Shown here: positions 1 to 56,419 of the stretch, in pieces
How the letters are laid out: each line of letters opens with the position of its first letter
How positions within the stretch are numbered: the stretch's first letter is position 1
IMG/VR virus record: IMGVR_UViG_3300021354_000009
Coordinates: 1 to 56,419 of that record
Length of the DNA: 56,419 nt
Source: a virus
Direction: 5' to 3' (one strand)
The notes under the pieces: generated by a model
Seen by the model: the letters and a program-made list of their open reading frames with translations, nothing else
Database searches by the model: none
Told to the model about the DNA's origin: nothing
Translations under genes and position numbers: made by a program

Positions 1-314
1 GAGACAGCACTCACAGTGATTGGACGCTTGTGCGTTGGATCACCGTAGAAGTTATCGTGGAAGTGGTGAGGCACTACGATATCCAAGAGAGCGCCATTCT
101 TGCAGACGCGGTGCAGTTCCTTCATCAACGGGATGAAGCTCTCACCGATATGCTCAAGGATATGGTGCGCCCTGATCTCTTCAACAGAGTTGTCCTCAAA
201 GGGCAACTTAGCGCCCTCAATGTTAACTAGGTAATCTGGCTCAACCAATGGGTCATCATCGACGTTTACAAAACCCTCGATGCGTTTATACCCACTACCT
301 AAGTTAACCTTCAT
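1..314 (-). CDS. SAM-dependent methyltransferase, N-terminal part (gene cut by the window ends)
   Basis: This is the 5' part of a gene that continues at the other end of the window (56022-56419). The start ATG at 314-312 overlaps the stop of the upstream gene (ATGA). The N-terminus has a class I methyltransferase motif I, NLGSGYKRIEGFVNVD, as in the COG4627 type of small methyltransferases. Joined through the 126-bp overlap the protein is 192 residues, a normal size for this group. Bases 1-7 do not match the other copy, so the reading frame here is reliable only down to about position 8. The substrate is unknown. Its neighbours (APS kinase, sulfotransferase-glycosyltransferase, RCC1 proteins) suggest glycan or surface modification, but this is inference. 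Confidence 0.75.
   Translation of the reverse strand, partial: MKVNLGSGYKRIEGFVNVDDDPLVEPDYLVNIEGAKLPFEDNSVEEIRAHHILEHIGESFIPLMKELHRVCKNGALLDIVVPHHFHDNFYGDPTHKRPITVSAV
8..133. repeat. Direct repeat of the window ends, copy 1
   Basis: These 126 bases are identical to 56294-56419. The methyltransferase gene reads through the join in one frame, so the simplest reading is a circular assembly written out with an overlap, meaning a complete, circular or circularly permuted phage genome. A true direct terminal repeat is less likely, because bases 1-7 do not continue the match and the repeat lies inside a gene. The length is close to common assembler k-mer sizes. Confidence 0.9.
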
Positions 315-700
315 AGAGCATCCAAAGCGTCGTGAGTAGTGCAAGCATCAATTGCGGCTTGCTTAGTCAACATCGCTTGGCGTGCTGTCTCTACAGCATT
401 AGCATCATATGAATCAGGGTTACGGGCTTGTTGGTTCACAACTTGTTGGAACTCAAAACCAGCGTTAGCTCTCATGCCACCCTTGCGGTCATCAACAGAG
501 ATCTCGTATGTATCCCAGATGATTTGCACTGGATCAGCGTTGAGGTCATAGCGATGTGCTGTGTACCCTTGACGGCCAGCTTGGATTGACGGGCGAACCT
601 CGACGGCATTACGCCATCCGTTGTTGCCTACGCCTTCTGAGGGAGGTGTATCCCAGACCTGCTTTACTTCGTTTCCGACTACTTGAACATAATGTGTCAT
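311..700 (-). CDS. Small phage protein, possible fibre-assembly partner
   Basis: The product is 129 residues. I chose ATG 700-698 because it follows AAGGAG at good spacing; a longer frame upstream lacks such a site and runs into the RCC1 gene. The middle contains WDTPPSEG, NGWRNAVEVRP and IWDTYEISVDDRKGGM, and the C-terminal half is rich in Ala and Gln. The segment with DPVQIIWDTYEISVDDRKG resembles small proteins often encoded just after tail-fibre genes, some of which act as fibre assembly chaperones. It lies directly after the RCC1 genes and overlaps the methyltransferase gene by ATGA. No catalytic motif is visible, and the chaperone role is a guess from position. Confidence 0.7.
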   Translation of the reverse strand: MTHYVQVVGNEVKQVWDTPPSEGVGNNGWRNAVEVRPSIQAGRQGYTAHRYDLNADPVQIIWDTYEISVDDRKGGMRANAGFEFQQVVNQQARNPDSYDANAVETARQAMLTKQAAIDACTTHDALDAL

Positions 701-720: not shown

Positions 721-1887
721 TTAAACTGATGCAATTGCCGTTGTGTTGGCAGAAGATCCAGCCGATATTGCTGTCCAACTAGTTAATGTGCCAACTTGTT
801 TTGGTGCTGATAAATTAGTTGTGTTACCTTGCCCCAACTGACCACTACTATTTGGCCCCCAAGTATAAAGAGTGCCAATTGTTGTTAGTGCGCCAGTACT
901 GTAAAGGCCTGCGCTTATTTGCAACCAATTAGTTGCAGAACCAATTTGCTTGGGGGAAGAATAGCTGGTTGTATTTCCTAGCCCCAATTGACCAAATGCT
1001 CCTTGACCCCAAGACCACATAGTGCCATCTGTTTTAATGGCTATTCCATTACTATATCCTGCGTCAATTTTTGACCAAGTGGTTAATGCACCAATTTGTT
1101 TTGGTGAGGAATAATATGTTGTGTTCCCAAGCCCAAGCTGGCCTACACCATTGTTTCCCCAAGCCCACAGAGTGCCGTCGGTTTTAAGTGCCAATGTATT
1201 ACCTAAAAGACTTGAAACTTTAGCCCAAGTTGTTAATGCGCCAATTTGTTTTGGTGAGGAGTAGTTTGTTGTGTTGCCAAGACCTAATACCCCGCCACCA
1301 CCTGAACCCCACGCCCATAATGTTCCATCTGTTTTAATGGCAAAAGTAGATGTGGCGGCGCCAGCACTACCTTGAACAAAAGCCCAATTGGTTAAAGCCC
1401 CAATTTGCACTGGGGAAGAATAGTATGTTGTATTACCTAATCCCAATTGACCACTTTGATTTCTTCCCCAACCCCACAAAGTGCCATTTGTCTTTATTCC
1501 AAAAGCAGTATATTGTCTAAGAGAAATAAAAGACCAATTGGTTAATGAGCCAACTTGTTTTGGGGAAGAATAATTGTTTGTGTTTCCAAGACCAGTACTA
1601 CCAAAACCACTACCACCCCAAGCCCAAAGTGTGCCATCTGTTTTTGTAGCAAGATTAACTGAAGAACCGCAACTAATAAGATTCCATGTAGTAAGCGATC
1701 CAACTTGTTTTGGGGACGAATAACTTGTAATATTTCCAACACCAAGTTGGCCAGAAGCGTTATCACCAATAGTAAATAAATACGGCACTGGCTGGCTAGG
1801 CCAAGTCCCCAACGCCCTTGCATTGGCTACACTGCTAAGACTCCATGAGCCTGAGTATTGAACGCCTGATACTGTTGTTGTTGCCAT
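721..1887 (-). CDS. RCC1-repeat beta-propeller protein (pair B, second member)
   Basis: The product is 388 residues. After a short N-terminal segment (VSGVQYSGSW, then GTWPSQPVP) it consists of seven repeats of about 50 residues following the pattern KTDGTLWAWG-x-N-x-x-GQLGLGNTT-x-YSSPKQIGALT-x-W. Seven repeats match the seven-bladed propeller of the eukaryotic RCC1 family. The last repeat is the most divergent. RCC1 repeats serve as binding platforms; in a phage beside fibre genes the likely role is adhesion, receptor binding or fibre decoration, not chromatin regulation. Its N-terminus matches that of the protein at 4815-5990. The upstream RCC1 gene ends 4 bases before this start, and GAGATAA acts as a modest ribosome binding site. 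Confidence 0.85.
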   Translation of the reverse strand: MATTTVSGVQYSGSWSLSSVANARALGTWPSQPVPYLFTIGDNASGQLGVGNITSYSSPKQVGSLTTWNLISCGSSVNLATKTDGTLWAWGGSGFGSTGLGNTNNYSSPKQVGSLTNWSFISLRQYTAFGIKTNGTLWGWGRNQSGQLGLGNTTYYSSPVQIGALTNWAFVQGSAGAATSTFAIKTDGTLWAWGSGGGGVLGLGNTTNYSSPKQIGALTTWAKVSSLLGNTLALKTDGTLWAWGNNGVGQLGLGNTTYYSSPKQIGALTTWSKIDAGYSNGIAIKTDGTMWSWGQGAFGQLGLGNTTSYSSPKQIGSATNWLQISAGLYSTGALTTIGTLYTWGPNSSGQLGQGNTTNLSAPKQVGTLTSWTAISAGSSANTTAIASV

Positions 1888-1891
1888 TTGT

Positions 1892-3031
1892 TTATCTCAA
1901 AGCAAAAGATGAATTTAGCATGGCGGCAACGGTAGACCACGTTAAAACCGACCCAACTTGCTTGGGGCTAGAGTAAGCGGTTACATTGCCCAACCCAAGC
2001 TGACCATTGGAGTTATAACCCCACGCCCATAAAGAACCGTCAGTTTTGGTTGCCATAGTAAAACTAGATGCACCTTGCGATGCCGCCACCCACGTAGTCA
2101 ATAAGCCAACTTGCTTAGGCGAAGAATAACTTGTTCTATTGCCAAGTCCTAGCTGTCCACGGTTGTTGTAGCCCCATGACCACAGAGTACCATCAGTTTT
2201 TGTATTGGCGGCACAAGCATATCCAGCATTAACAGTACGCCAAGTGGTAAGAGCGCCAATCTGTTTTGGAGATGAATAATAAGTAGTATTGCCAAGACCA
2301 AGTTGTCCTTGGCTATTGCTACCCCATGACCACATAGTGCCGTCAGTTTTAATGGCAAACGTCATAGGGTCTAAGTATGCTGATGTAGAAATCTTAGACC
2401 ATGTAGTCAATGCTCCGATTTGCTTTGGCGAAGAATATGACGTAGTATTTCCCAAACCTAACTGACCTACGTTACCACTACCCCAAGACCACAATGTGCC
2501 GTCAGTTTTTAAAGCAATAGTTTGATTATAACCAGCGGCAACATTGAGCCATGTAGAAAGTAATCCAACTTGCACAGGACTAGACCGATATGTAGTATTG
2601 CCTTGACCTAACTGACCATTATTATTGCGGCCCCACATCCATAATGTTCCATCAGTTTTAACTGCGCCAGTAAATCCTTCGCCACAAGCTACCTGCGCCC
2701 AAGTAGTTAATGCACCAACTTGTATGGGGCTAGAATAATTTGTAAGATTTCCATTACCCAAGTTGCCATAGCCGTTATATCCCCACATCCACAAGGTTCC
2801 ATTGGGCTTTAAAGCCGCCGCAAATACATTGCCAGCAGAAGCAGAGACGCTTGCCCACTCACTAGTAGCTCCAACTTGTACAGGAGATGAATAGGCGGTA
2901 GTGTTGCCTAATCCCAACTGACCTTGTGCATTGCGGCCCCAGCTATACAAATCATAAAAAGTCGTACTCGTCTGCGTCCCAAGCGGATTAAAGCCGGGCT
3001 TGTTGATGGCCGCTACGTAGCGATTGCTCAC
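1892..3031 (-). CDS. RCC1-repeat beta-propeller protein (pair B, first member)
   Basis: I place the start at GTG 3031-3029. It overlaps the stop of the upstream sulfotransferase gene (GTGA), has AAGGAT upstream, and gives an N-terminus (NKPGFNPLGTQTS) that matches the paralogue at 5994-7121. The product is then 379 residues with seven RCC1 repeats, for example IALKTDGTLWSWG and GQLGLGNTTSYSSPKQIG. It is predicted to fold as one seven-bladed propeller. The codons for the N-terminal motif keep a 27-base stretch (2969-2995) identical to 7053-7079. It probably works with the next gene, since the same two-gene arrangement occurs twice. Its function as an adhesin or receptor-binding part is inferred. 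Confidence 0.83.
   Translation of the reverse strand: MSNRYVAAINKPGFNPLGTQTSTTFYDLYSWGRNAQGQLGLGNTTAYSSPVQVGATSEWASVSASAGNVFAAALKPNGTLWMWGYNGYGNLGNGNLTNYSSPIQVGALTTWAQVACGEGFTGAVKTDGTLWMWGRNNNGQLGQGNTTYRSSPVQVGLLSTWLNVAAGYNQTIALKTDGTLWSWGSGNVGQLGLGNTTSYSSPKQIGALTTWSKISTSAYLDPMTFAIKTDGTMWSWGSNSQGQLGLGNTTYYSSPKQIGALTTWRTVNAGYACAANTKTDGTLWSWGYNNRGQLGLGNRTSYSSPKQVGLLTTWVAASQGASSFTMATKTDGSLWAWGYNSNGQLGLGNVTAYSSPKQVGSVLTWSTVAAMLNSSFALR
2969..2995. repeat. 27-bp exact repeat in paralogous RCC1 genes, copy 1
   Basis: These 27 bases are identical to 7053-7079. They encode the conserved KPGFNPLGTQT segment near the N-terminus of the first RCC1 protein of each pair. The surrounding repeats differ at synonymous sites, so exact identity here is notable. 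It may reflect a recent duplication or a recombination point. Confidence 0.85.
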
Positions 3032-4800
3032 GAAACCATCCTTAGTTCTACTTTGTTCATGTTCAATCTCTCTTTGATTTTGTTGAACGGAGCATCCCAC
3101 TCACCAAACACTTCTTGACGCAACAGCTTCATGGTGTCGTAGTACGGGCACTTATCGCCATCTAAAGCATACAGGTAGTACCCCATCACAGGGATAACCA
3201 CCCAAGTCTCCACACCCATAGCCGCCGCCAAATGGCTCACGGACGTACATGAACTGATGACTAAGTCGCAGGATGCAACAGCGTTTTTAGTGTCTTCCCA
3301 AGTATTCAATGGTACTTGTTTTACCCACGTAGGGCAAGCATCTGCACCCTCATCGCGCTGTAAAGATATGAACTCATAGTCCGTGCCTCGCACTGCATCA
3401 AACAGCATTTGGTATGGGAAGCGTTTGTTATGGTCGTCCTCGAATTTGCTGTTACCTTGCCAACGCAGACCAATGCGTTTCTTGTAACCTTTGATGACTG
3501 CGGGCTTGTCAATATACGCATCCCCACGTAGGTCTGCCATCTCGTAGCCGAGGTAGTACGGAGCCACCATAGCAAAGCACCAGAAGTCGTGGTAGACGCC
3601 GTATTCCGCGCCGTGCTGAATGACAGCAGATACGCCTTCAATCTTATTGAACAAACCCACCAAAGCGCCTGAACAGCACACTACTACCTTGTTACCCCTC
3701 GCAACTAAGTCACGGGCGTAACGCACTTGGTGGATTTGATCGCCAAGGCCGTGATCGCAGTACAGCAGGATCGTGCCTTTTGTCTTGCCGTCCCACTCTG
3801 GGGCTGGGGTGTCTGGGAACTTCTCACCAATGATTCCACAGAAGCGCCCTCTGTTCATCTCTCTATAGCCCTCACCGACCTTGCCCTGTTTGAGCAAGTA
3901 CCAACTGCGGTTGTACGCGGCTCGGTGGTCATTGGGACGCTCGGCATTGAGCTTCTCTGAGAGTCTCCACCCTTCGGTAAAGTCACCCATCTTGCCAGCC
4001 GCGACTTGGAGGTCTAAGTCATCTAACTCAGGCATCGTGCGTGCGTTGTCATTCCAGAACTCTGGTTGGCAGAATTGGTTGTAGTGGTGCTTCAATAAGT
4101 CTTTGGACTTGTCATCGTGCTGTTTAGCCAAGACGGGCTTGACATCGTGCATACCAGCGTAGCCGTGTAGGTTCTCGTCGTCTTCCTTGACCGAACTGCC
4201 GTCGATGTTGCTGAAGTCGTAGGCGTATGGCTCCAGACCCAAGAACTCATGGATGCGGTCTAGTTGACCCTTTGGATCAGCAAGGAGTTCGTCATACACA
4301 ACGAATAGGAAGTTCTCTGGCATGGCTTTGTAGCCCGCTTCCAACGACAGATATGCCGCCTTTAGGTGGTCAGCCAACTGTCCAGAGTACATGAATTTAT
4401 CTAGATCATCAGGCTTTGCCACGCGCACGAACGACGCCATGCAATCAGGCACAGGACGCACGGTAGCGATCACCTTACAGGGACGATTCAGCACTTGGTT
4501 CATCGCACCCATGATCTGGGGGATAGGCCACCCACGGGACTTGTCAATGATGACAGGCTTGTCTGTGTCTTCGTAGAAAGCATCAATACAGCCACGCATT
4601 GTCTGCGCGAGCTTCTTGCGTTCAGGGTCGTTCTCGTTTAACAGGCCAGCCGAGTGCCATGTGTTGGCAAGCCCATCAAGGGCGTGGACAAGGCCAGATG
4701 TCGTAGAGACGTGGGTTGCGGGGTTTTGGTTCAGGATAGCCGCCAAGACGGTAGAGCCTGAACGTGGAATGCCAGAGAGGAAGTGTAGTGTTTTGTTCAT
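3028..4800 (-). CDS. Sulfotransferase-TPR-glycosyltransferase fusion
   Basis: The product is 590 residues. Residues 1 to about 265 look like a sulfotransferase: HFLSGIPRSGSTVL at the N-terminus is the 5'-phosphosulfate loop that binds PAPS, and ATVRPVPDCMASFVR fits the 3'-phosphate site. Residues about 270-325 form a TPR-like helical segment (AAYNRSWYLLKQGKVGEGY). Residues about 330-585 resemble the GT9-type C-terminal domain found on TPR proteins, with YCDHGLGDQIHQVRYARDL, IGLRWQGNSKFEDDHNKRFP and SCDLVISSCTSVSHLAAAMG. One chain may therefore bind or build a glycan and sulfate it. It sits between the two RCC1 pairs. The start ATG at 4800 has no strong ribosome binding site. Acceptor and activity are unknown. 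Confidence 0.8.
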   Translation of the reverse strand: MNKTLHFLSGIPRSGSTVLAAILNQNPATHVSTTSGLVHALDGLANTWHSAGLLNENDPERKKLAQTMRGCIDAFYEDTDKPVIIDKSRGWPIPQIMGAMNQVLNRPCKVIATVRPVPDCMASFVRVAKPDDLDKFMYSGQLADHLKAAYLSLEAGYKAMPENFLFVVYDELLADPKGQLDRIHEFLGLEPYAYDFSNIDGSSVKEDDENLHGYAGMHDVKPVLAKQHDDKSKDLLKHHYNQFCQPEFWNDNARTMPELDDLDLQVAAGKMGDFTEGWRLSEKLNAERPNDHRAAYNRSWYLLKQGKVGEGYREMNRGRFCGIIGEKFPDTPAPEWDGKTKGTILLYCDHGLGDQIHQVRYARDLVARGNKVVVCCSGALVGLFNKIEGVSAVIQHGAEYGVYHDFWCFAMVAPYYLGYEMADLRGDAYIDKPAVIKGYKKRIGLRWQGNSKFEDDHNKRFPYQMLFDAVRGTDYEFISLQRDEGADACPTWVKQVPLNTWEDTKNAVASCDLVISSCTSVSHLAAAMGVETWVVIPVMGYYLYALDGDKCPYYDTMKLLRQEVFGEWDAPFNKIKERLNMNKVELRMVS

Positions 4801-4814
4801 GGGATTAGTTTATA

Positions 4815-5990
4815 TCAGGTAGAGGCAATTGCTACTACATTATTTAAACTACAAGAAACAGATGACCAAGTTGTTAATGATCCAACCTGTTTAGGGGATG
4901 AATAGTTTGTTGTATTACCTGTACCTAGTTGTCCATAATTGTTTTGACCCCAAGTCCAAAGGGTTCCATCAGTTTTAGTAGAAACGGTAAAGTATCTACC
5001 CGATGCAATAGTTAACCAATTTGTTAATACACCAATTTGTTTTGGAGATGAGTAATTAGTTCTGTTTCCAAGACCTAATTCTCCAATACTATTTATTCCC
5101 CAAGACCAAAGAGTTCCGTCTGTTTTGGTGGCTAATGATGTGTATGGGCCTGCATTTGTAATAAGCCATGTGGTTAAAGCGCCAATTTGTTTTGGTGAAG
5201 AATAATTGGTGCTATTGCCAAGGCCTAATTGGCCACCTGCGCCTTGATAATTGGAATTCCAACCCCAAGACCATATTGTTCCATCGGTCTTAATAGCCAA
5301 GGCATGAAAAAACCCCGCAGTTATTTTTGACCAAGTTGTCAAAGAACCAACTTGTTTTGGAGAAGAATAAGATGTAGTGTTATTAAGACCTAGTTCGCCA
5401 TAATCATTTCTAGCCCATGACCAAAGCGTACCGTCGGTTTTAATAGCGTAAGAACTATATGCACCTGCGGCTGTAGTAAGCCAAGTGGTTAAACTGCCTA
5501 TTTGTTTAGGTGATGAATAATAGGTTATGTTTCCCAAACCTAATTGGCCAAAACCATTACCACCCCAAGCCCATAATGTACCGTCTGTTTTGGTAGTTAA
5601 AACATTGAAATATCCTACAGATATTTTTGACCAATTAGTTAAAGCTCCAACTTGTTTAGGTGACGAATAAGATGTTGTATTACCTAAGCCAAGTCTACCG
5701 CCGGGACCATAACCCCATGCCCACAAAGTACCGTCCGTTTTAATTACAAGAGATGCGCCTATTGATGTACCAGTTGGTAATACTGACCAGCTAGTAAGAG
5801 TGTCAACCTGCTTGGGGGATGAATAATTAGTCGTGTTACCTAATCCAAGCTGACCATTACTGTTTAAACCCCACGCATACAAATGCGGAGCAGGCTGAGT
5901 CGGCCAAGTCCCTGCCGAAATAGCAGAGTTAACCTGTTGCATTGTCCAGATGCCTGAGTATTGAACGCCTGATACTTGTAATGTTGCCAT
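4815..5990 (-). CDS. RCC1-repeat beta-propeller protein (pair A, second member)
   Basis: The product is 391 residues. The N-terminus VSGVQYSGIW and GTWPTQPAPHLYAWG is shared with the protein at 721-1887, which marks the two as paralogues. Seven RCC1 repeats follow; the fifth carries a short insertion (WNSNYQGAGGQ). The start ATG 5990 has AAGGAT upstream and lies 3 bases after the stop of the preceding RCC1 gene. Residues in the loop after WAWG or WSWG vary from blade to blade while the GQLGLGN and YSSPKQ parts stay constant, as expected for a propeller with a variable binding face. A surface-binding role is inferred. Confidence 0.85.
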   Translation of the reverse strand: MATLQVSGVQYSGIWTMQQVNSAISAGTWPTQPAPHLYAWGLNSNGQLGLGNTTNYSSPKQVDTLTSWSVLPTGTSIGASLVIKTDGTLWAWGYGPGGRLGLGNTTSYSSPKQVGALTNWSKISVGYFNVLTTKTDGTLWAWGGNGFGQLGLGNITYYSSPKQIGSLTTWLTTAAGAYSSYAIKTDGTLWSWARNDYGELGLNNTTSYSSPKQVGSLTTWSKITAGFFHALAIKTDGTIWSWGWNSNYQGAGGQLGLGNSTNYSSPKQIGALTTWLITNAGPYTSLATKTDGTLWSWGINSIGELGLGNRTNYSSPKQIGVLTNWLTIASGRYFTVSTKTDGTLWTWGQNNYGQLGTGNTTNYSSPKQVGSLTTWSSVSCSLNNVVAIAST

Positions 5991-5993
5991 GAT

Positions 5994-7121
5994 TTATCCT
6001 TGGGCAATAACATGATACTGGCCACCATCAAAAACACCCCAAGTTGTAGATACTCCCACTTGTTTTGGTGATGAGTAGCTTGTAGTATTTCCAAGACCTA
6101 ACTGTCCTTCTGTGCCACGACCCCAAGCCCAAAGCGTTCCGTCAGTTTTAGATGCAAGTGTAAATTCTTGACCGCCAACAGCAAGATTTAACCAGTTGGT
6201 TAATGAACCCACTTGTTTGGGTGAGGAATAATATGTCAGATTGTTAAGGCCTAACTGTCCTGTTTGATTTTGTCCCCACGCCCAAAAAGTACCGTCAGTT
6301 TTAACAGCTACGGTGTAATACGCACCACCAGAAACTTTTAACCAATTTGTTAATGCGCCAATTTGTTTGGGAGAGCTAAAGTTAGTTCTATTTCCAATCC
6401 CTAGTTGACCAACTGCATTATTTCCCCAAGACCAAATAGTTCCATCGGTTTTAACAGCATATGAATTTACCCTACCAGCAGAAACAGTTGACCAATTAGT
6501 TAAAGCGCCCACTTGTTTAGGAGATGAATAATATGTTGTATTTCCAAGTCCAAGTTCACCGTATGGATTTTGACCCCATGAGAATAATTGACCCGAAGTA
6601 TTGATTGCAACGCAATGCGCTCCTCCAAAAGCAATTTTGCTCCAAGTGGTTAATGATCCAACTTGTTTTGGAGATGAATAAGATGTTGTGTTACCAAGGC
6701 CTAATTGACCAGAACCGCCATATCCCCATGCCCATAACGTACCATCGGTTTTAATAACGTAAATTTGTGGGCCAAATCCTTGGGCAATATACGACCATGT
6801 AGTCAATGAACCGACTTGCTTGGGCGAAGAATAATATGTTGTATTACCAAGACCTAATTGGCCACTGCCATTCGAGCCCCATGCCCATAAAGTACCGTCA
6901 TTACGAATTGCATAAGAAGAATTTGTTGCGCCAACATTTGTCCAATACAAAGAACCAACTTGTTTTGGCGAGGAATAATTTGTTCTATTATTAAGTCCAA
7001 GCGCCCCATCTGCGCCACTACCCCAAGTAAATAGGTTATATGCATAGGAAGACGTCTGCGTCCCAAGCGGATTAAAGCCAGGCTTAATAATACTTCCCAG
7101 ATTTTGTTGGCGTAAGCTCAT
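5994..7121 (-). CDS. RCC1-repeat beta-propeller protein (pair A, first member)
   Basis: The product is 375 residues and starts MSLRQQNLGSIIKPGFNPLG, which aligns with the first member of pair B. Seven RCC1 repeats follow (for example YAVKTDGTIWSWGNN and GQLGIGNRTNFSSPKQIG). It is the first RCC1 gene after the fibre genes in the direction of transcription, so the propeller array sits where receptor-binding or fibre-tip genes are expected. There is no signal peptide or membrane segment, which fits a virion protein or cytoplasmic assembly factor. The close repeats make gene conversion between copies plausible. Confidence 0.85.
   Translation of the reverse strand: MSLRQQNLGSIIKPGFNPLGTQTSSYAYNLFTWGSGADGALGLNNRTNYSSPKQVGSLYWTNVGATNSSYAIRNDGTLWAWGSNGSGQLGLGNTTYYSSPKQVGSLTTWSYIAQGFGPQIYVIKTDGTLWAWGYGGSGQLGLGNTTSYSSPKQVGSLTTWSKIAFGGAHCVAINTSGQLFSWGQNPYGELGLGNTTYYSSPKQVGALTNWSTVSAGRVNSYAVKTDGTIWSWGNNAVGQLGIGNRTNFSSPKQIGALTNWLKVSGGAYYTVAVKTDGTFWAWGQNQTGQLGLNNLTYYSSPKQVGSLTNWLNLAVGGQEFTLASKTDGTLWAWGRGTEGQLGLGNTTSYSSPKQVGVSTTWGVFDGGQYHVIAQG
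7053..7079. repeat. 27-bp exact repeat in paralogous RCC1 genes, copy 2
   Basis: This copy is identical to 2969-2995 and lies in the codons for the shared N-terminal KPGFNPLGTQT segment of the first RCC1 gene in pair A. Confidence 0.85.
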
Positions 7122-7135
7122 TGGCTACTCCAAAA

Positions 7136-7510
7136 TTACGATATGACTTCGTATGAGATCGTGTAAGTGATTCCGCTTGCAGTACCCGATGTCACCGTGA
7201 TGGACTTGTCTTCCATCAAATAGATGGCAGTCGTTTTATCCACAGCAATCACTGACGCGCTTGCGGGCACAGCAATAGTGGAGATCACTGGGTAAGCAGT
7301 ACCACCACCTGCCGCTACACTGTTAATTGACACGGTAGCATTTACAGCCGAAGTACCGTTCACGTTAGCGCACACGATCTGGTTGATCTTGTAGACCTGA
7401 CCACTGGATGCGGCGTTAGATAGCAACACGTTAGCAGTTGTATTGGTAGGTGTTAAGTACGTGGTCGTGCCAGACGCTGTGGTCGCCGCAAGAAGATTTG
7501 GATTAGCCAT
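7136..7510 (-). CDS. Small Thr/Ser/Ala-rich virion protein candidate
   Basis: The product is 124 residues with no charged core and many Thr, Ser, Ala and Val residues, predicted to be beta-rich (for example SAVNATVSINSVAAGGG). Such composition is typical of phage fibre or decoration proteins. The start ATG 7510 has a strong AAGGAG site upstream. It lies between the fibre genes (7520-10230) and the RCC1 array. It has no motif that identifies a family with certainty. A trimeric head-like domain or collar protein is possible. Confidence 0.65.
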   Translation of the reverse strand: MANPNLLAATTASGTTTYLTPTNTTANVLLSNAASSGQVYKINQIVCANVNGTSAVNATVSINSVAAGGGTAYPVISTIAVPASASVIAVDKTTAIYLMEDKSITVTSGTASGITYTISYEVIS

Positions 7511-7519
7511 GTTAGCTCC

Positions 7520-8083
7520 TTAAATACTGAAGATAAAGTTGATCATTGTCGCTTTGGCTTGTGTGACGCCAGAAGCCGCGGGTGCAGACGATACCCAACC
7601 AGAACCGTTTGATGTCAACACGTTTCCGTTAGTTCCAGATGACGTCAAACCTGTACCACCGTTTGCGGCAATTAAAGTCCCCGCCAACGTGATAGCCCCA
7701 GTTGAACTGGTACTTGGCGTAAACCCTGTGGTGCCCGCGCTGAATGATGTCACACCACCAGTACTGGCCGCCCAAGTTGGTAAACCGCCAGACAATGTCA
7801 ACACATAGCCATTAGTGCCTACAGCCAACTTGCTTAGAGTATTTGTAGCCGATGCATATAGCAAGTCACCAGTGGTGTAGGTCGTCAGACCCGTACCGCC
7901 TGCGGTCGTTGGCGTTGTCTTCCAAGCGATAACTTGTACAGCGTTCGAATTGTCTTTGTAGAACAACTTACCATCGGTGACGTTGATCGCCAACTCACCA
8001 TTTGCAAGATTTGTGTTTACAGGAACGGAAGCCGCTGTAGTGCTGTAGTACAGCGAAATTGGGGTATAGCCTGATGCGGACAT
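7520..8083 (-). CDS. Short tail-fibre protein
   Basis: The product is 187 residues. The N-terminus contains NLANGELAINVTDGKLFYKD, a pattern seen at the N-termini of phage fibre and tropism proteins (Mtd_N-like), where it forms the attachment domain. The rest is Gly/Thr/Ser-rich repeat sequence (AGGTGLTTYTTGDLLYASA, NGGTGLTSSGTNGNVL) typical of a fibre shaft. It starts at an ATG that shares a base with the stop of the large fibre gene (TAATG), so the two are translationally coupled. One copy of the genome-wide palindrome CCAGTTSAACTGG lies inside it at 7698-7710. Confidence 0.75.
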   Translation of the reverse strand: MSASGYTPISLYYSTTAASVPVNTNLANGELAINVTDGKLFYKDNSNAVQVIAWKTTPTTAGGTGLTTYTTGDLLYASATNTLSKLAVGTNGYVLTLSGGLPTWAASTGGVTSFSAGTTGFTPSTSSTGAITLAGTLIAANGGTGLTSSGTNGNVLTSNGSGWVSSAPAASGVTQAKATMINFIFSI

Positions 8084-10230
8084 TAGAAAGTTCCTCCAGT
8101 AATGCCACCTGTAATTGTCCCATTAACGGCATTACAAGTTATTGATGAGTTTACCAATTCAGGTAGATTTCCGCTAGTAGCAGTTACAAAAGTTAAGTAA
8201 TTTGTTGCACCAGAAGATGCTGACGTAATACCCACATTAGTTGCGTTTGTTGCGGTTCCTGACGTCTCTGCGTTTAAGTTAGCCACTTGAGTTGTGGATG
8301 CAACCGTTAAAGGAGCCGTACCCGTGGCTATTGTCGAAATAAGCCTTGTACCTTGCACCGTCTGAGACGTAATAATTGCAGAGCCAGTGCTTAGTGTGTT
8401 TGTGCTCCAAGTGGTGTTTGCTGGCGCTTGGAAATGGGTGTCCCATGAACCTGCCGCTATTGCATTAGATAAAAGAGTTACATCAACAAATCCACCCGAA
8501 GGTACAGACACAATAAGTGTCCCTGAATTATTGTTGACTGTTATGGCACCACTGCTTTGGTTATTGTTGAATGTGTAATTAACACCATTTGCCAAAGTTG
8601 TTGCATTAGGTAATTGATATGTCTGCCCACCAGAACCAGTAACTACATAATTTGGTACAGATGCAACTGTTAATGTCGTGGTTGTACCAGTTGCGGCAAC
8701 ACTTAAATAACCTTGGCTAAGTGAATTTACAGAAATATTTTGATTTGCATCTTTAACAACAATGCCACTTGCACCGTTGGTTGCATTACCCAAAGCCGTT
8801 AATACACCAGTTCCAGTGGTTGTGGTGCTTGGAGCCACGCCTGCACCGCCCCCAATCATCAAAGCGCTAGCCGTTAAAACCGCGCTTGATGCCCATGTAC
8901 TTGCAGAACTGAAGTAAACAACACCGCCAGAGGTGCCTGCAACGGTCAAAGCAGGGGTTGTAGTTGGTGTTGCTACAGTAATTAAACCGCCAGTAAAACC
9001 AACGCTAGTAACCGTACCTGATGAAGTACTAATGGTTGCCCAAGTTCCATCACCTCGCAAATACGTGGTGGATGATGGTGTTCCTGAAACTGCACCAGAT
9101 AACGCTGTAACGCTAGAAATTAATGTGCCAGATGTTGGCAACGTAACTGCCGTATTTGCAGTTGCCGTAAAAGATTGTGTAAAAGCGCCTGAGTGCGTTA
9201 AGTTACCACCAATTGTGATCGTGCTTGATCCGTTGTTTACCCCAGTGCCACCACTTGCACCGCCTAGAGTACCACCCAAAGTAATCACGCCCGTAGTTGC
9301 AGTCGATGGCGTTAAACCACTTAAAGATGTTTGAAAAGAGGTAACCCCACCCGCAGAACCATTTGATGCAACAGTAATTTGACCTTGAGCATTAACAGTG
9401 ATGTTGGCATTTGTGTAGGAGCCTGCAACCACTGTTGTGTCAGCAATTGAAATAGTGCCTGTCGAGGTGATAGGGCCACCCGTAAGACCAGTTCCAGTTG
9501 CAACAGAAGTAACACCAGTACCCGTGGTAATTGAACCCCACACGCCATTTGCATAGCCTTCAAATGTTCCAGTAGTAGTGTTGTATCTAAGTTGGCCATT
9601 TGTGGCACTACCACGTTGTCCAGTAGTACCACTAGGAATTGTTATTGAAGCGGTGCCTGGCACCACTGGGTTAGACGCAATACCTATAGTGGGCGAACCA
9701 CCTATGCCGTTTCCATTGCTAACACTAATTTGATTAGTAGTACCAACGATTGTGGTAGCTGTAACAGTGTTTCCGTTAACAGTTAATAAACCAACCGCAC
9801 TTGTACTAGAAATGTTTTGTAAAAGTTGGCTTAAACCGATCAAAGGATTTGCAGAAACACCATCACCATTAGAGACGGTCATCCCTGAGCCAACCGTTAT
9901 TGAACGGTTTGTGACTGTGCTAGCGCTATCTTTGACAATAATTCCTGTACTTGCGCTATTCAAACTTGCTGACGCGCCAGTCATGTTGATTCGCAAAGTG
10001 GTGCCTGCGCCACCATCAGTTAAAGATAACCCAGTGCTAGTCGTTAAATAACGCGCTTGGGTCAATCCTGAAGTTGATCCAACAGTCAAAAACGGATAGT
10101 TCAGTGCGCCCGCACCAGAAATAGAGCTAGTAGTGGTTTGTACAGTTACACCGTTTTGAACAATAGGTACAAGCTCAGAACCCGTCAAGGCTGATGCGTT
10201 TGGTAGTTGGGTAATGGTTATATTGGCCAT
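8083..10230 (-). CDS. Long tail-fibre protein
   Basis: The product is 715 residues. It begins MANITITQLPNASALTGSEL, a start often seen in phage fibre proteins, and continues with beta-rich Gly/Thr/Ser repeats such as GASGGTGVNNGSSTITIGG and SSTTYLRGDGTWATIST, which are common in fibre shafts. No chaperone or peptidase domain is visible at the C-terminus. It is probably trimeric and forms the main host-contact fibre, with the 187-residue protein encoded immediately after. The gene starts 2 bases after the preceding stop. Confidence 0.8.
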   Translation of the reverse strand: MANITITQLPNASALTGSELVPIVQNGVTVQTTTSSISGAGALNYPFLTVGSTSGLTQARYLTTSTGLSLTDGGAGTTLRINMTGASASLNSASTGIIVKDSASTVTNRSITVGSGMTVSNGDGVSANPLIGLSQLLQNISSTSAVGLLTVNGNTVTATTIVGTTNQISVSNGNGIGGSPTIGIASNPVVPGTASITIPSGTTGQRGSATNGQLRYNTTTGTFEGYANGVWGSITTGTGVTSVATGTGLTGGPITSTGTISIADTTVVAGSYTNANITVNAQGQITVASNGSAGGVTSFQTSLSGLTPSTATTGVITLGGTLGGASGGTGVNNGSSTITIGGNLTHSGAFTQSFTATANTAVTLPTSGTLISSVTALSGAVSGTPSSTTYLRGDGTWATISTSSGTVTSVGFTGGLITVATPTTTPALTVAGTSGGVVYFSSASTWASSAVLTASALMIGGGAGVAPSTTTTGTGVLTALGNATNGASGIVVKDANQNISVNSLSQGYLSVAATGTTTTLTVASVPNYVVTGSGGQTYQLPNATTLANGVNYTFNNNQSSGAITVNNNSGTLIVSVPSGGFVDVTLLSNAIAAGSWDTHFQAPANTTWSTNTLSTGSAIITSQTVQGTRLISTIATGTAPLTVASTTQVANLNAETSGTATNATNVGITSASSGATNYLTFVTATSGNLPELVNSSITCNAVNGTITGGITGGTF

Positions 10231-55572: not shown

Positions 55573-56025
55573 TTATGCCAAACAAATCTCACGCATTAGC
55601 CAACTCTCTTTTGAGAGCTTCATCATCTTGGCAACTTCTTCTGCGTAGTACTGCATACTAAACGTGCCATTGACCCGAACATTGTAATTTTCTGGGGGTA
55701 CAAATAACTTGTTTGTATCTTCAAACCGACCCTCTTTGATGCGGTCTACCCATACAACAAAGTCAGGTGCAAACGCCTCTCTTGTCTCTGGCGTAGGGCA
55801 TACAAAGTCAGCAATCACATAAGCACCGTATCTAGATGCTATGTCGCACAACACGCCCATACGTCTGGCTTGCTCTAACCTGTCGGCTATGCTGAACCCC
55901 AAGTCTTTGTTGATCTCTTTGCGTATCTCGTCAGCATTGAAGTGGACGCACATAAGCTCCCTAGCCAAAGCCGTGGCCAGAGTTGTCTTGCCTGAGCCGG
56001 GCAAACCCATGATTAGTATCTTCAT
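55573..56025 (-). CDS. cysC: APS-kinase-like protein (PAPS-forming candidate)
   Basis: The product is 150 residues. GLPGSGKTTLATALARELM (7-25) is the P-loop. HFNADEIRKEINKDLGFSI and DRLEQARRMGVLCDIA match the APS-binding motif of adenylylsulfate kinases, and VIADFVCPTPETREAF and DRIKEGRFEDTN are typical. It would phosphorylate APS to PAPS, the donor for sulfotransferases. The host would supply APS from ATP sulfurylase. Its start overlaps the methyltransferase stop by ATGA. The sulfotransferase gene lies about 5.3 kb away on the circle. Other P-loop kinases of unknown substrate have a similar look. Confidence 0.78.
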   Translation of the reverse strand: MKILIMGLPGSGKTTLATALARELMCVHFNADEIRKEINKDLGFSIADRLEQARRMGVLCDIASRYGAYVIADFVCPTPETREAFAPDFVVWVDRIKEGRFEDTNKLFVPPENYNVRVNGTFSMQYYAEEVAKMMKLSKESWLMREICLA

Positions 56026-56419
56026 TTGACAGCCCTCATCTTAATCATTGTGTGCAAAGCGACGTTGTTGGCTTCACGCATCAAACGACGGAACATGAAC
56101 TGCTCGTCGTGCGTCATAGTGCCGTTCTCGGTCTTTTGCTTCATCATGTCTACCATGTTCTGGTAGAACGGGTCGTACTCAAAGTCGTACCATTCCATGT
56201 CAAAGTCGATGCCGTACTTCAAAGCCATGCCTGAACTGGAGCCATAGGCTTCCTTGTGCTCTTCGCAATGCTTCTTTGAGAATAGGTACATCCCACTCAC
56301 AGTGATTGGACGCTTGTGCGTTGGATCACCGTAGAAGTTATCGTGGAAGTGGTGAGGCACTACGATATCCAAGAGAGCGCCATTCTTGCAGACGCGGTGC
56401 AGTTCCTTCATCAACGGGA
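56022..56419 (-). CDS. SAM-dependent methyltransferase, C-terminal part
   Basis: This is the 3' part of the methyltransferase whose start is at 314. Residues include MKELHRVCKNGALLDIVVPH, HFHDNFYGDPTHKRPITVSG and EWYDFEYDPFYQNMVDMM. The chain ends RAVK and overlaps the APS-kinase start by ATGA. Joined with 134-314 it forms one 192-residue frame. The C-terminal basic helix (EQFMFRRLMREANNVALHTM) is usual for the group. Confidence 0.78.
   Translation of the reverse strand, partial: PLMKELHRVCKNGALLDIVVPHHFHDNFYGDPTHKRPITVSGMYLFSKKHCEEHKEAYGSSSGMALKYGIDFDMEWYDFEYDPFYQNMVDMMKQKTENGTMTHDEQFMFRRLMREANNVALHTMIKMRAVK
56294..56419. repeat. Direct repeat of the window ends, copy 2
   Basis: Identical to 8-133 over 126 bases. 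The copy here continues correctly into the methyltransferase gene, so it is taken as the true sequence at the join. Confidence 0.9.

Follow-up and report, generated by a model that had tools for sequence, protein, structure and literature searches.

The virus record IMGVR_UViG_3300021354_000009, analysed over its whole length of 56,419 bases (the window, to which all coordinates refer), carries on its minus strand four adjacent genes for seven-repeat RCC1 propellers, with a gene for a sulfotransferase (ST) between the second and the third. As judged from sequence, this region is probably the host-recognition cassette of a tailed phage, encoding receptor-binding proteins of the tail-fibre tip. 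Comparison with related loci indicates that its propellers are exchanged, not diverged by mutation, upon short N-terminal segments (anchors) that stay in place. For the phage genes that bear the annotation "regulator of chromosome condensation" there was a guess, DNA organisation, but no supported function; the present data would put them at the host-recognition tip and account for their multiplicity.

Propeller turnover on constant anchors

We searched viral contigs with the four propeller proteins and with ST, and obtained more than 120 loci. In the window the propeller genes occupy slots that we name A (5994..7121, anchor MSLRQQNLGSIIKPGFNPLGTQTS), the first gene after the upstream gene U124 in conserved cassettes, B (4815..5990, anchor VSGVQYSGIWTMQQVNSAISAGTWP, with a predicted helix at residues 17-25), A' (1892..3031, anchor VSNRYVAAINKPGFNPLGTQTS, GTG start) and B' (721..1887, anchor VSGVQYSGSWSLSSVANARALGTWP), all on the minus strand. 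All 28 RCC1 repeats score above the Pfam cut-off, seven in each gene as an earlier note on this DNA had counted, and the number is far from chance: 239 of 241 complete RCC1 open reading frames (ORFs) in related loci have exactly seven. The note had also described two pairs, alike in the order of their members and matching at the N-termini, one on either side of ST (3028..4800), which is what we find, and it had staked its proposal on the conservation of this arrangement in relatives. The arrangement is kept. The order U124-A-B-ST-A'-B'-DS155 recurs in 25 complete four-propeller cassettes, on phages with different cores, and the N-termini of the relatives are specific to the slot (A, MSIRQMFPGSIVKPGFNPL; B, GVQYSGIWTMQQVNAAIAAGTWP; A', MSFRYAAGINKPGFNPL; B', GVQYSGIWNISSQANAKAAGTWP). 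Some relatives join the A and B N-termini in one gene before a single propeller, on the second side of the cassette (10 loci), on the first side (L111) or on both (L097 and L206), and because both anchors are there fused onto one propeller, A and B probably act together.

The pairs had further been called duplicated. Pairing is indeed seen in the N-termini, but the propeller bodies bear no trace of a duplication of pairs, the four of them being about equidistant (56-63% amino-acid identity, with third-base identity at fourfold sites of 0.31-0.40). We rejected the idea that the four genes were recently duplicated or converted, as their repeat DNA is ~60-80% identical, has no long identical tracts and is saturated at fourfold sites; the only recent sharing of DNA is 46 nt of the B and B' N-termini, at 85%.

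Exchange is apparent from the contrast between the propellers and everything around them. Between the window and locus L203, nucleotide identity is 93% in ST, 84% in U124, 92% in DS155 and 72-95% in the anchors, against 65-67% in the propellers. For a wider comparison we took the 28 cassette pairs whose ST genes are at least 90% identical in nucleotides, with unrelated propellers as the background. In these pairs the anchors average ~85%, the propellers are at the background value (0.645, against 0.645 +/- 0.017), and only 1% of propellers exceed 0.8. At codons for the same amino acid, third-base identity at fourfold sites is 0.79 in ST and 0.78 in the anchors but 0.36 in the propellers, the same as between unrelated propellers (0.36). 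If the proteins were merely evolving fast, the similarity at synonymous sites would be that of the flanks, so the propellers have been exchanged. The recurrence of individual propellers in other slots agrees with this. The slot-A propeller of L134 is 91% identical to the slot-A' propeller of L146, with breaks at the propeller edges, while the upstream flanks of the two A genes are ~90% identical and divergence lies within the propeller; and the B' propeller of L230 is 97% identical to that of an A'B' fusion in L237. The earlier suggestion of a recombining binding surface thus stands as far as exchange is concerned, although what moves is mainly whole propellers, at the anchor/propeller boundary, and not single blades within the window.

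Accelerated point mutation, whether by positive selection or by a diversity-generating retroelement, is an extremely improbable source of this divergence. The two hypervariable loops of each blade would suit it, but the saturation of framework synonymous sites next to well-conserved anchors led us to reject hyper-mutation of the propellers, and the return of whole propellers at 91-97% in other slots is likewise against it. Neither does a synonymous-saturated divergence correspond to that of a retroelement target, and no reverse transcriptase family was found among the window proteins scanned, a set that covers part of the small ORFs. In two loci, L231 (in an RCC1 gene after ST) and L233 (in three RCC1 genes), the blades hardly differ from one another, and in L233 this holds out of register between genes as well; the pattern suggests either recent rebuilding of propellers by blade amplification or a collapse of the assembly.

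Predicted fold and variable face of the propellers

Structure prediction of single proteins had been proposed as a check, and AlphaFold2 models B as a confident, closed propeller (mean predicted local distance difference test score, pLDDT, 90; predicted template-modelling score 0.86). The best matches of this model in the PDB are UVR8, HERC1/2 and RPGR, with template-modelling (TM) scores of 0.80-0.84 for UVR8, HERC2 and RPGR; RCC1 itself ranks below UVR8 and HERC, and the viral fold matches include Pseudomonas phage tail fibres. Within the RCC1 superfamily (UVR8, the RCC1-like domains of HERC proteins, RPGR and RCC1), the likeness to UVR8 extends to the seven-blade fold, at a TM score of 0.80, a root-mean-square deviation of 1.5-1.6 Å and 28% identity. 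It does not imply for the phage propellers the light-sensing Trp pyramid of UVR8 or the guanine nucleotide exchange role of RCC1.

Entropy was computed for each column over 1,673 blades. It is high in columns 10, 12 and 13 (WGxNxxG) and in columns 43-45, the three residues after the second conserved glycine of the blade; most blade insertions fall in or beside these two loops, and all seven blades vary alike. The loop after WAWG, which had been singled out as the variable one, does vary, but the second loop is equally variable. By its strand order, an argument from topology and not from coordinates, the B model puts both variable loops on one face of the antiparallel blade, opposite the conserved loops (TDG and GALTT). 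Mean entropy on the two faces is 3.06 and 1.17 bits, respectively (permutation p 0.001), and the frequency of tyrosine is 16% on the variable face and 3% elsewhere. The variable columns align with the GWRHT segments of UVR8 and, by our own reading of the UVR8 sequence, presumably fall also at its residues E43, D44 and D96. These three are residues of the UVR8 dimer interface (PMC8748919).

Probable role in host recognition and the linked sulfotransferase

A sample of loci chosen by the upstream gene U124 only shows that the same types of anchor carry, in place of RCC1, heads that are glycine-rich, LamG-like (FNYVTMLLH), Kelch-like or of a ~690-residue type (YIEDVFSTYLYTG); among these labels Gly_rich_2 (PF21722), in L191, is the one confirmed by Pfam, the others having been given by eye. 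In one locus, L234, slot A has a glycine-rich head and slot B an RCC1 one. MW202545 (Manatee Spring), a complete circular relative whose capsid, portal and terminase are 95%, 76% and 73% identical to those of the window, has tail-fibre genes at the position of the cassette, and the 50 kb of it that were read have no annotated RCC1 gene. Finally, in the cyanophages S-SRM01 and BUCT-ZZ01 RCC1 genes independently adjoin tail-fibre genes, and the C-terminal half of ST has a relative in a gene that immediately follows an RCC1 gene. Taken together, the head swaps, the synteny with MW202545 and the neighbours of the cyanophage RCC1 genes make host recognition much the best reading of the cassette, which has what is expected of modular receptor-binding proteins, that is, a constant N-terminal module with an exchanged distal domain, in the tail-fibre region.

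We propose that in each of the four slots the short, slot-specific anchor docks the protein on the tail-fibre or adaptor apparatus, as the position and constancy of the anchors suggest, and displays a head open to exchange, which in the window is a closed propeller of seven RCC1 blades. The ligand surface would be one face of the propeller, that with the two hypervariable loops per blade and ~40 variable positions. Adsorption specificity would then change by recombination of whole propellers between phages or between slots, while the anchors, ST and the borders stay constant. ST, fed with 3'-phosphoadenosine 5'-phosphosulfate (PAPS) by an adjacent protein resembling adenosine 5'-phosphosulfate (APS) kinase, would modify something required only with RCC1 heads, most simply the propellers.

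It is very improbable that the propellers are intracellular proteins for DNA organisation or nucleotide exchange, as the name and fold of RCC1 would have it and as PHROGs implies by placing the family under DNA metabolism. RCC1 genes sit in the tail-fibre clusters of several unrelated phages, their heads interchange with glycine-rich, LamG-like and Kelch-like ones on the same anchors, a turnover of whole domains is unlike a housekeeping function, and among solved structures the nearest, headed by UVR8, are RCC1-like domains that bind proteins. We also think it improbable, if somewhat less so, that the propellers stay outside the virion and are secreted or displayed late, for instance to block superinfection or coat debris, with their proximity to tail genes reflecting operon position only. 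Several consecutive small genes in a structural region could be read in this way, but the glycine-rich and LamG-like heads of the same slots are typical of tail adhesins, the N-termini, inspected by eye, show no signal peptide, and the pattern of exchange is that of receptor-binding proteins. Some points do weigh against the proposal as a whole. The anchors match no known anchor family, and tyrosine is as frequent in three loci taken as ST-negative, a comparison weakened by a fragment of ST in one of them. In addition, the authors of the phAPEC6 study, who noted 11 RCC1-like proteins, suggested for them, without a test, a role in ordering DNA, as part of an inner body (PMC7247149). Tyrosine enrichment as a mark of ST-bearing cassettes is unsupported, and since propellers taken as ST-negative have the same frequency, it gives no specific pointer to tyrosine sulfation.

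The N-terminal part of ST is a PAPS sulfotransferase domain (PF13469/PF00685; E 4e-15 for PF13469), fused to a C-terminal half related to phage tetratricopeptide repeat (TPR) proteins. Both PAPS-binding motifs are present, and their residues P12-R13-S14-G15 and R115/S123 are invariant in 17 relatives; the best profile match among solved structures, a weak one, is to human TPST2 (E 3.6e-5, residues 5-190). The structure model of ST is too poor to interpret (mean pLDDT 55), and no relatives were found in one-per-species bacterial genomes. The profile match and PAPS motifs are shared with tyrosylprotein sulfotransferases, that is, human TPST2 and the bacterial RaxST of the RaxX system (PMC6637879), which differ in lacking the additional TPR-like half.

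To relate ST to the type of head we used the 47 U124-anchored loci with at least 3.8 kb of downstream sequence. Of these, 25 have RCC1 heads together with ST and 22 lack both, without exception (p 7e-14), a strict link that the earlier note had not seen. These loci are related to one another, and the result is consistent after clustering at 90% and at 80%; at 80% identity of U124, 6 clusters have both and 15 have neither. The APS-kinase-like gene, which recurs after DS155 and a methyltransferase gene, occurs in 9 of the 11 RCC1 loci whose sequence extends far enough, and in none of 11 others. In the window it lies at 55573..56025 and encodes a P-loop kinase (PF01583, E 4e-15); we call it APS-kinase-like because it is above the Pfam APS_kinase cut-off but reaches 55 bits with the NCBIfam apsK equivalog, below the cut-off of 138.7, matching in its N-terminal part only. 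Both associations suggest that sulfation is tied to RCC1 heads. ST is ~97% identical in protein while all four heads change and is gone when the heads are not RCC1, so the RCC1 scaffold seems a likelier substrate than a particular receptor.

The competing idea for this part of the proposal is that the targets of ST and the APS-kinase-like protein lie on the host surface, where sulfation of lipopolysaccharide (LPS) or capsule would mask the receptor after infection. NoeE and other sulfotransferases act on glycans, ST has a weak NCBIfam match to NoeE, and the heptose genes that follow some cassettes suggest LPS-related chemistry. Nevertheless we regard it as rather unlikely, as the constancy of ST across head changes indicates a substrate that follows the head scaffold, ST is absent where the same slots bear other heads, and it overlaps the start codon of A'. 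The heptose genes in question, for ADP-heptose, are found after the cassette in L211, L214, L217, L218, L231 and L238 (an HldE-like kinase, an HldE-like adenylyltransferase and an HldD-like epimerase, with a cupin-like gene), pointing to an LPS-type sugar chemistry carried by the phages.

Tentatively, and with less than even confidence, we suggest that phages with the cassette add sulfate, and possibly sugars, to the heads by which they bind their receptor. The ST-TPR enzyme would modify residues of the RCC1 scaffold with PAPS from the phage APS-kinase-like protein. If this is true, any propeller swapped into a slot would gain the same sulfated binding surface, and the cassette would encode a viral adhesin sulfated after translation, together with an enzyme dedicated to that modification and mobile along with it. 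Phage sulfotransferases have been described as of unclear function (PMC10580990); the perfect linkage of ST to one type of head offers a direct, testable hypothesis for its substrate.

Modular receptor-binding proteins are already known; what is new here is the RCC1 type of head, the paired slots and the linked sulfotransferase. In T7/K1F and Klebsiella KP32-type phages an N-terminal anchor bears a specificity domain that is exchanged horizontally, and synteny is broken at the receptor-binding genes (PMC6872550). The cassette shares with them the constant attachment module and the horizontally moved distal domain, and differs in its anchors of ~25-45 residues, in its four slots set as two A-B pairs, in its single-chain RCC1 heads, among which no depolymerase was seen, and in having a sulfotransferase as one of its parts. 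It also resembles the glycine-rich adhesins of T-even type, which are small, separate tip proteins with exchangeable hypervariable segments, and in relatives these slots hold Gly_rich_2 heads on anchors of the same kind, but the hypervariable element of the cassette is a seven-blade propeller. The likeness to Gp38 is one that we assume from general knowledge. Beta-propeller receptor-binding domains with a proposed role in host recognition at the virion periphery have been described in phi11, PRD1 P2 and PhiKZ gp131 (PMC4901313). The propeller fold and the proposed role are thus common to both, whereas those domains belong to other propeller families, with five blades in phi11 and PRD1, and neither an RCC1 motif nor paired slots are described there. 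The open-access literature that we searched describes no cassette of RCC1 heads that has paired slots and a sulfotransferase linked to it, and it yielded no paper naming both RCC1 and phage receptor binding. With many propellers on constant anchors, the cassette is a natural library, useful for the study of adsorption determinants in uncultured aquatic phages.

Borders, genome context and spread of the cassette

On the minus strand, the tail-fibre gene TF715 (8083..10230), whose homologue in MW202545 is annotated as a phage-related tail fiber protein, is followed by U187, U124, A, B, ST, A', B', DS155, the methyltransferase-like gene and the APS-kinase-like gene. U187 (7520..8083) is tail-fibre-like: it weakly matches families of the distal subunit of long tail fibres. 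The cassette has two constant borders. On the left is U124 (7136..7510), of 124 residues, with 72-90% identity in most of the close cassettes, and on the right is DS155 (311..700), of 129 residues, up to 95% identical between cassettes and without a match in a Pfam search. The methyltransferase-like gene (PF08241, E 3e-5) runs from 3..344 across the circular junction to 56022-56417. Since the ends of the record (1-133 and 56291-56419) overlap by ~125 bp and split this one gene, the window is very probably a complete circular genome of ~56.3 kb, though its class in IMG/VR is linear. The genes for terminase, portal and head lie at 15-27 kb.

The A' gene truly starts with the GTG at 3031 rather than at 3100, which gives an overlap of 4 nt (GTGA) with the stop of ST; read from there, its N-terminus resembles that of its partner. 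Of 47 cassettes, 29 have a spacing of -4 between ST and A' and another 10 have -1, so the two genes are probably translationally coupled.

Conservation of the cassette along a phage lineage was considered and rejected, as none of 40 terminase-related records, many of them fragments, has RCC1 genes; the cassette does not follow the phage core. Compared with 21 records bearing the block, many of which are fragments, the window terminase has one match at 51% and four at 33-38% over ~200 residues, and none in the others. L203 is 98% identical to the window in ST protein and 95% in DS155, yet its neighbouring tail genes are unrelated. From these different cores and unrelated neighbours, sequence comparison indicates that the block moves between phages. 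Free-standing GIY-YIG-like ORFs are found in cassette junctions (U124/A, ST/A' or B'/DS155) in 26 loci, including L134/L263, L135, L158/L257, L209, L211, L216, L230, L238 and L313, and homing by them could help to spread the block and convert its flanks.

Other layouts were also seen. L159 and L165 have at least seven consecutive RCC1 genes, with proline-rich linkers and another type of N-terminus (MAFTxSGxx), a different multi-propeller arrangement. In L232 (1-3600), beside ST, a single ORF has Fn3-like repeats followed by 14 RCC1 repeats, that is, two propellers in one chain. A marine parallel is MH319737 (Marine virus AG-345-E08), a single-cell virus record of 35 kb in which RCC1 has seven matches and the TPR half of ST has one.

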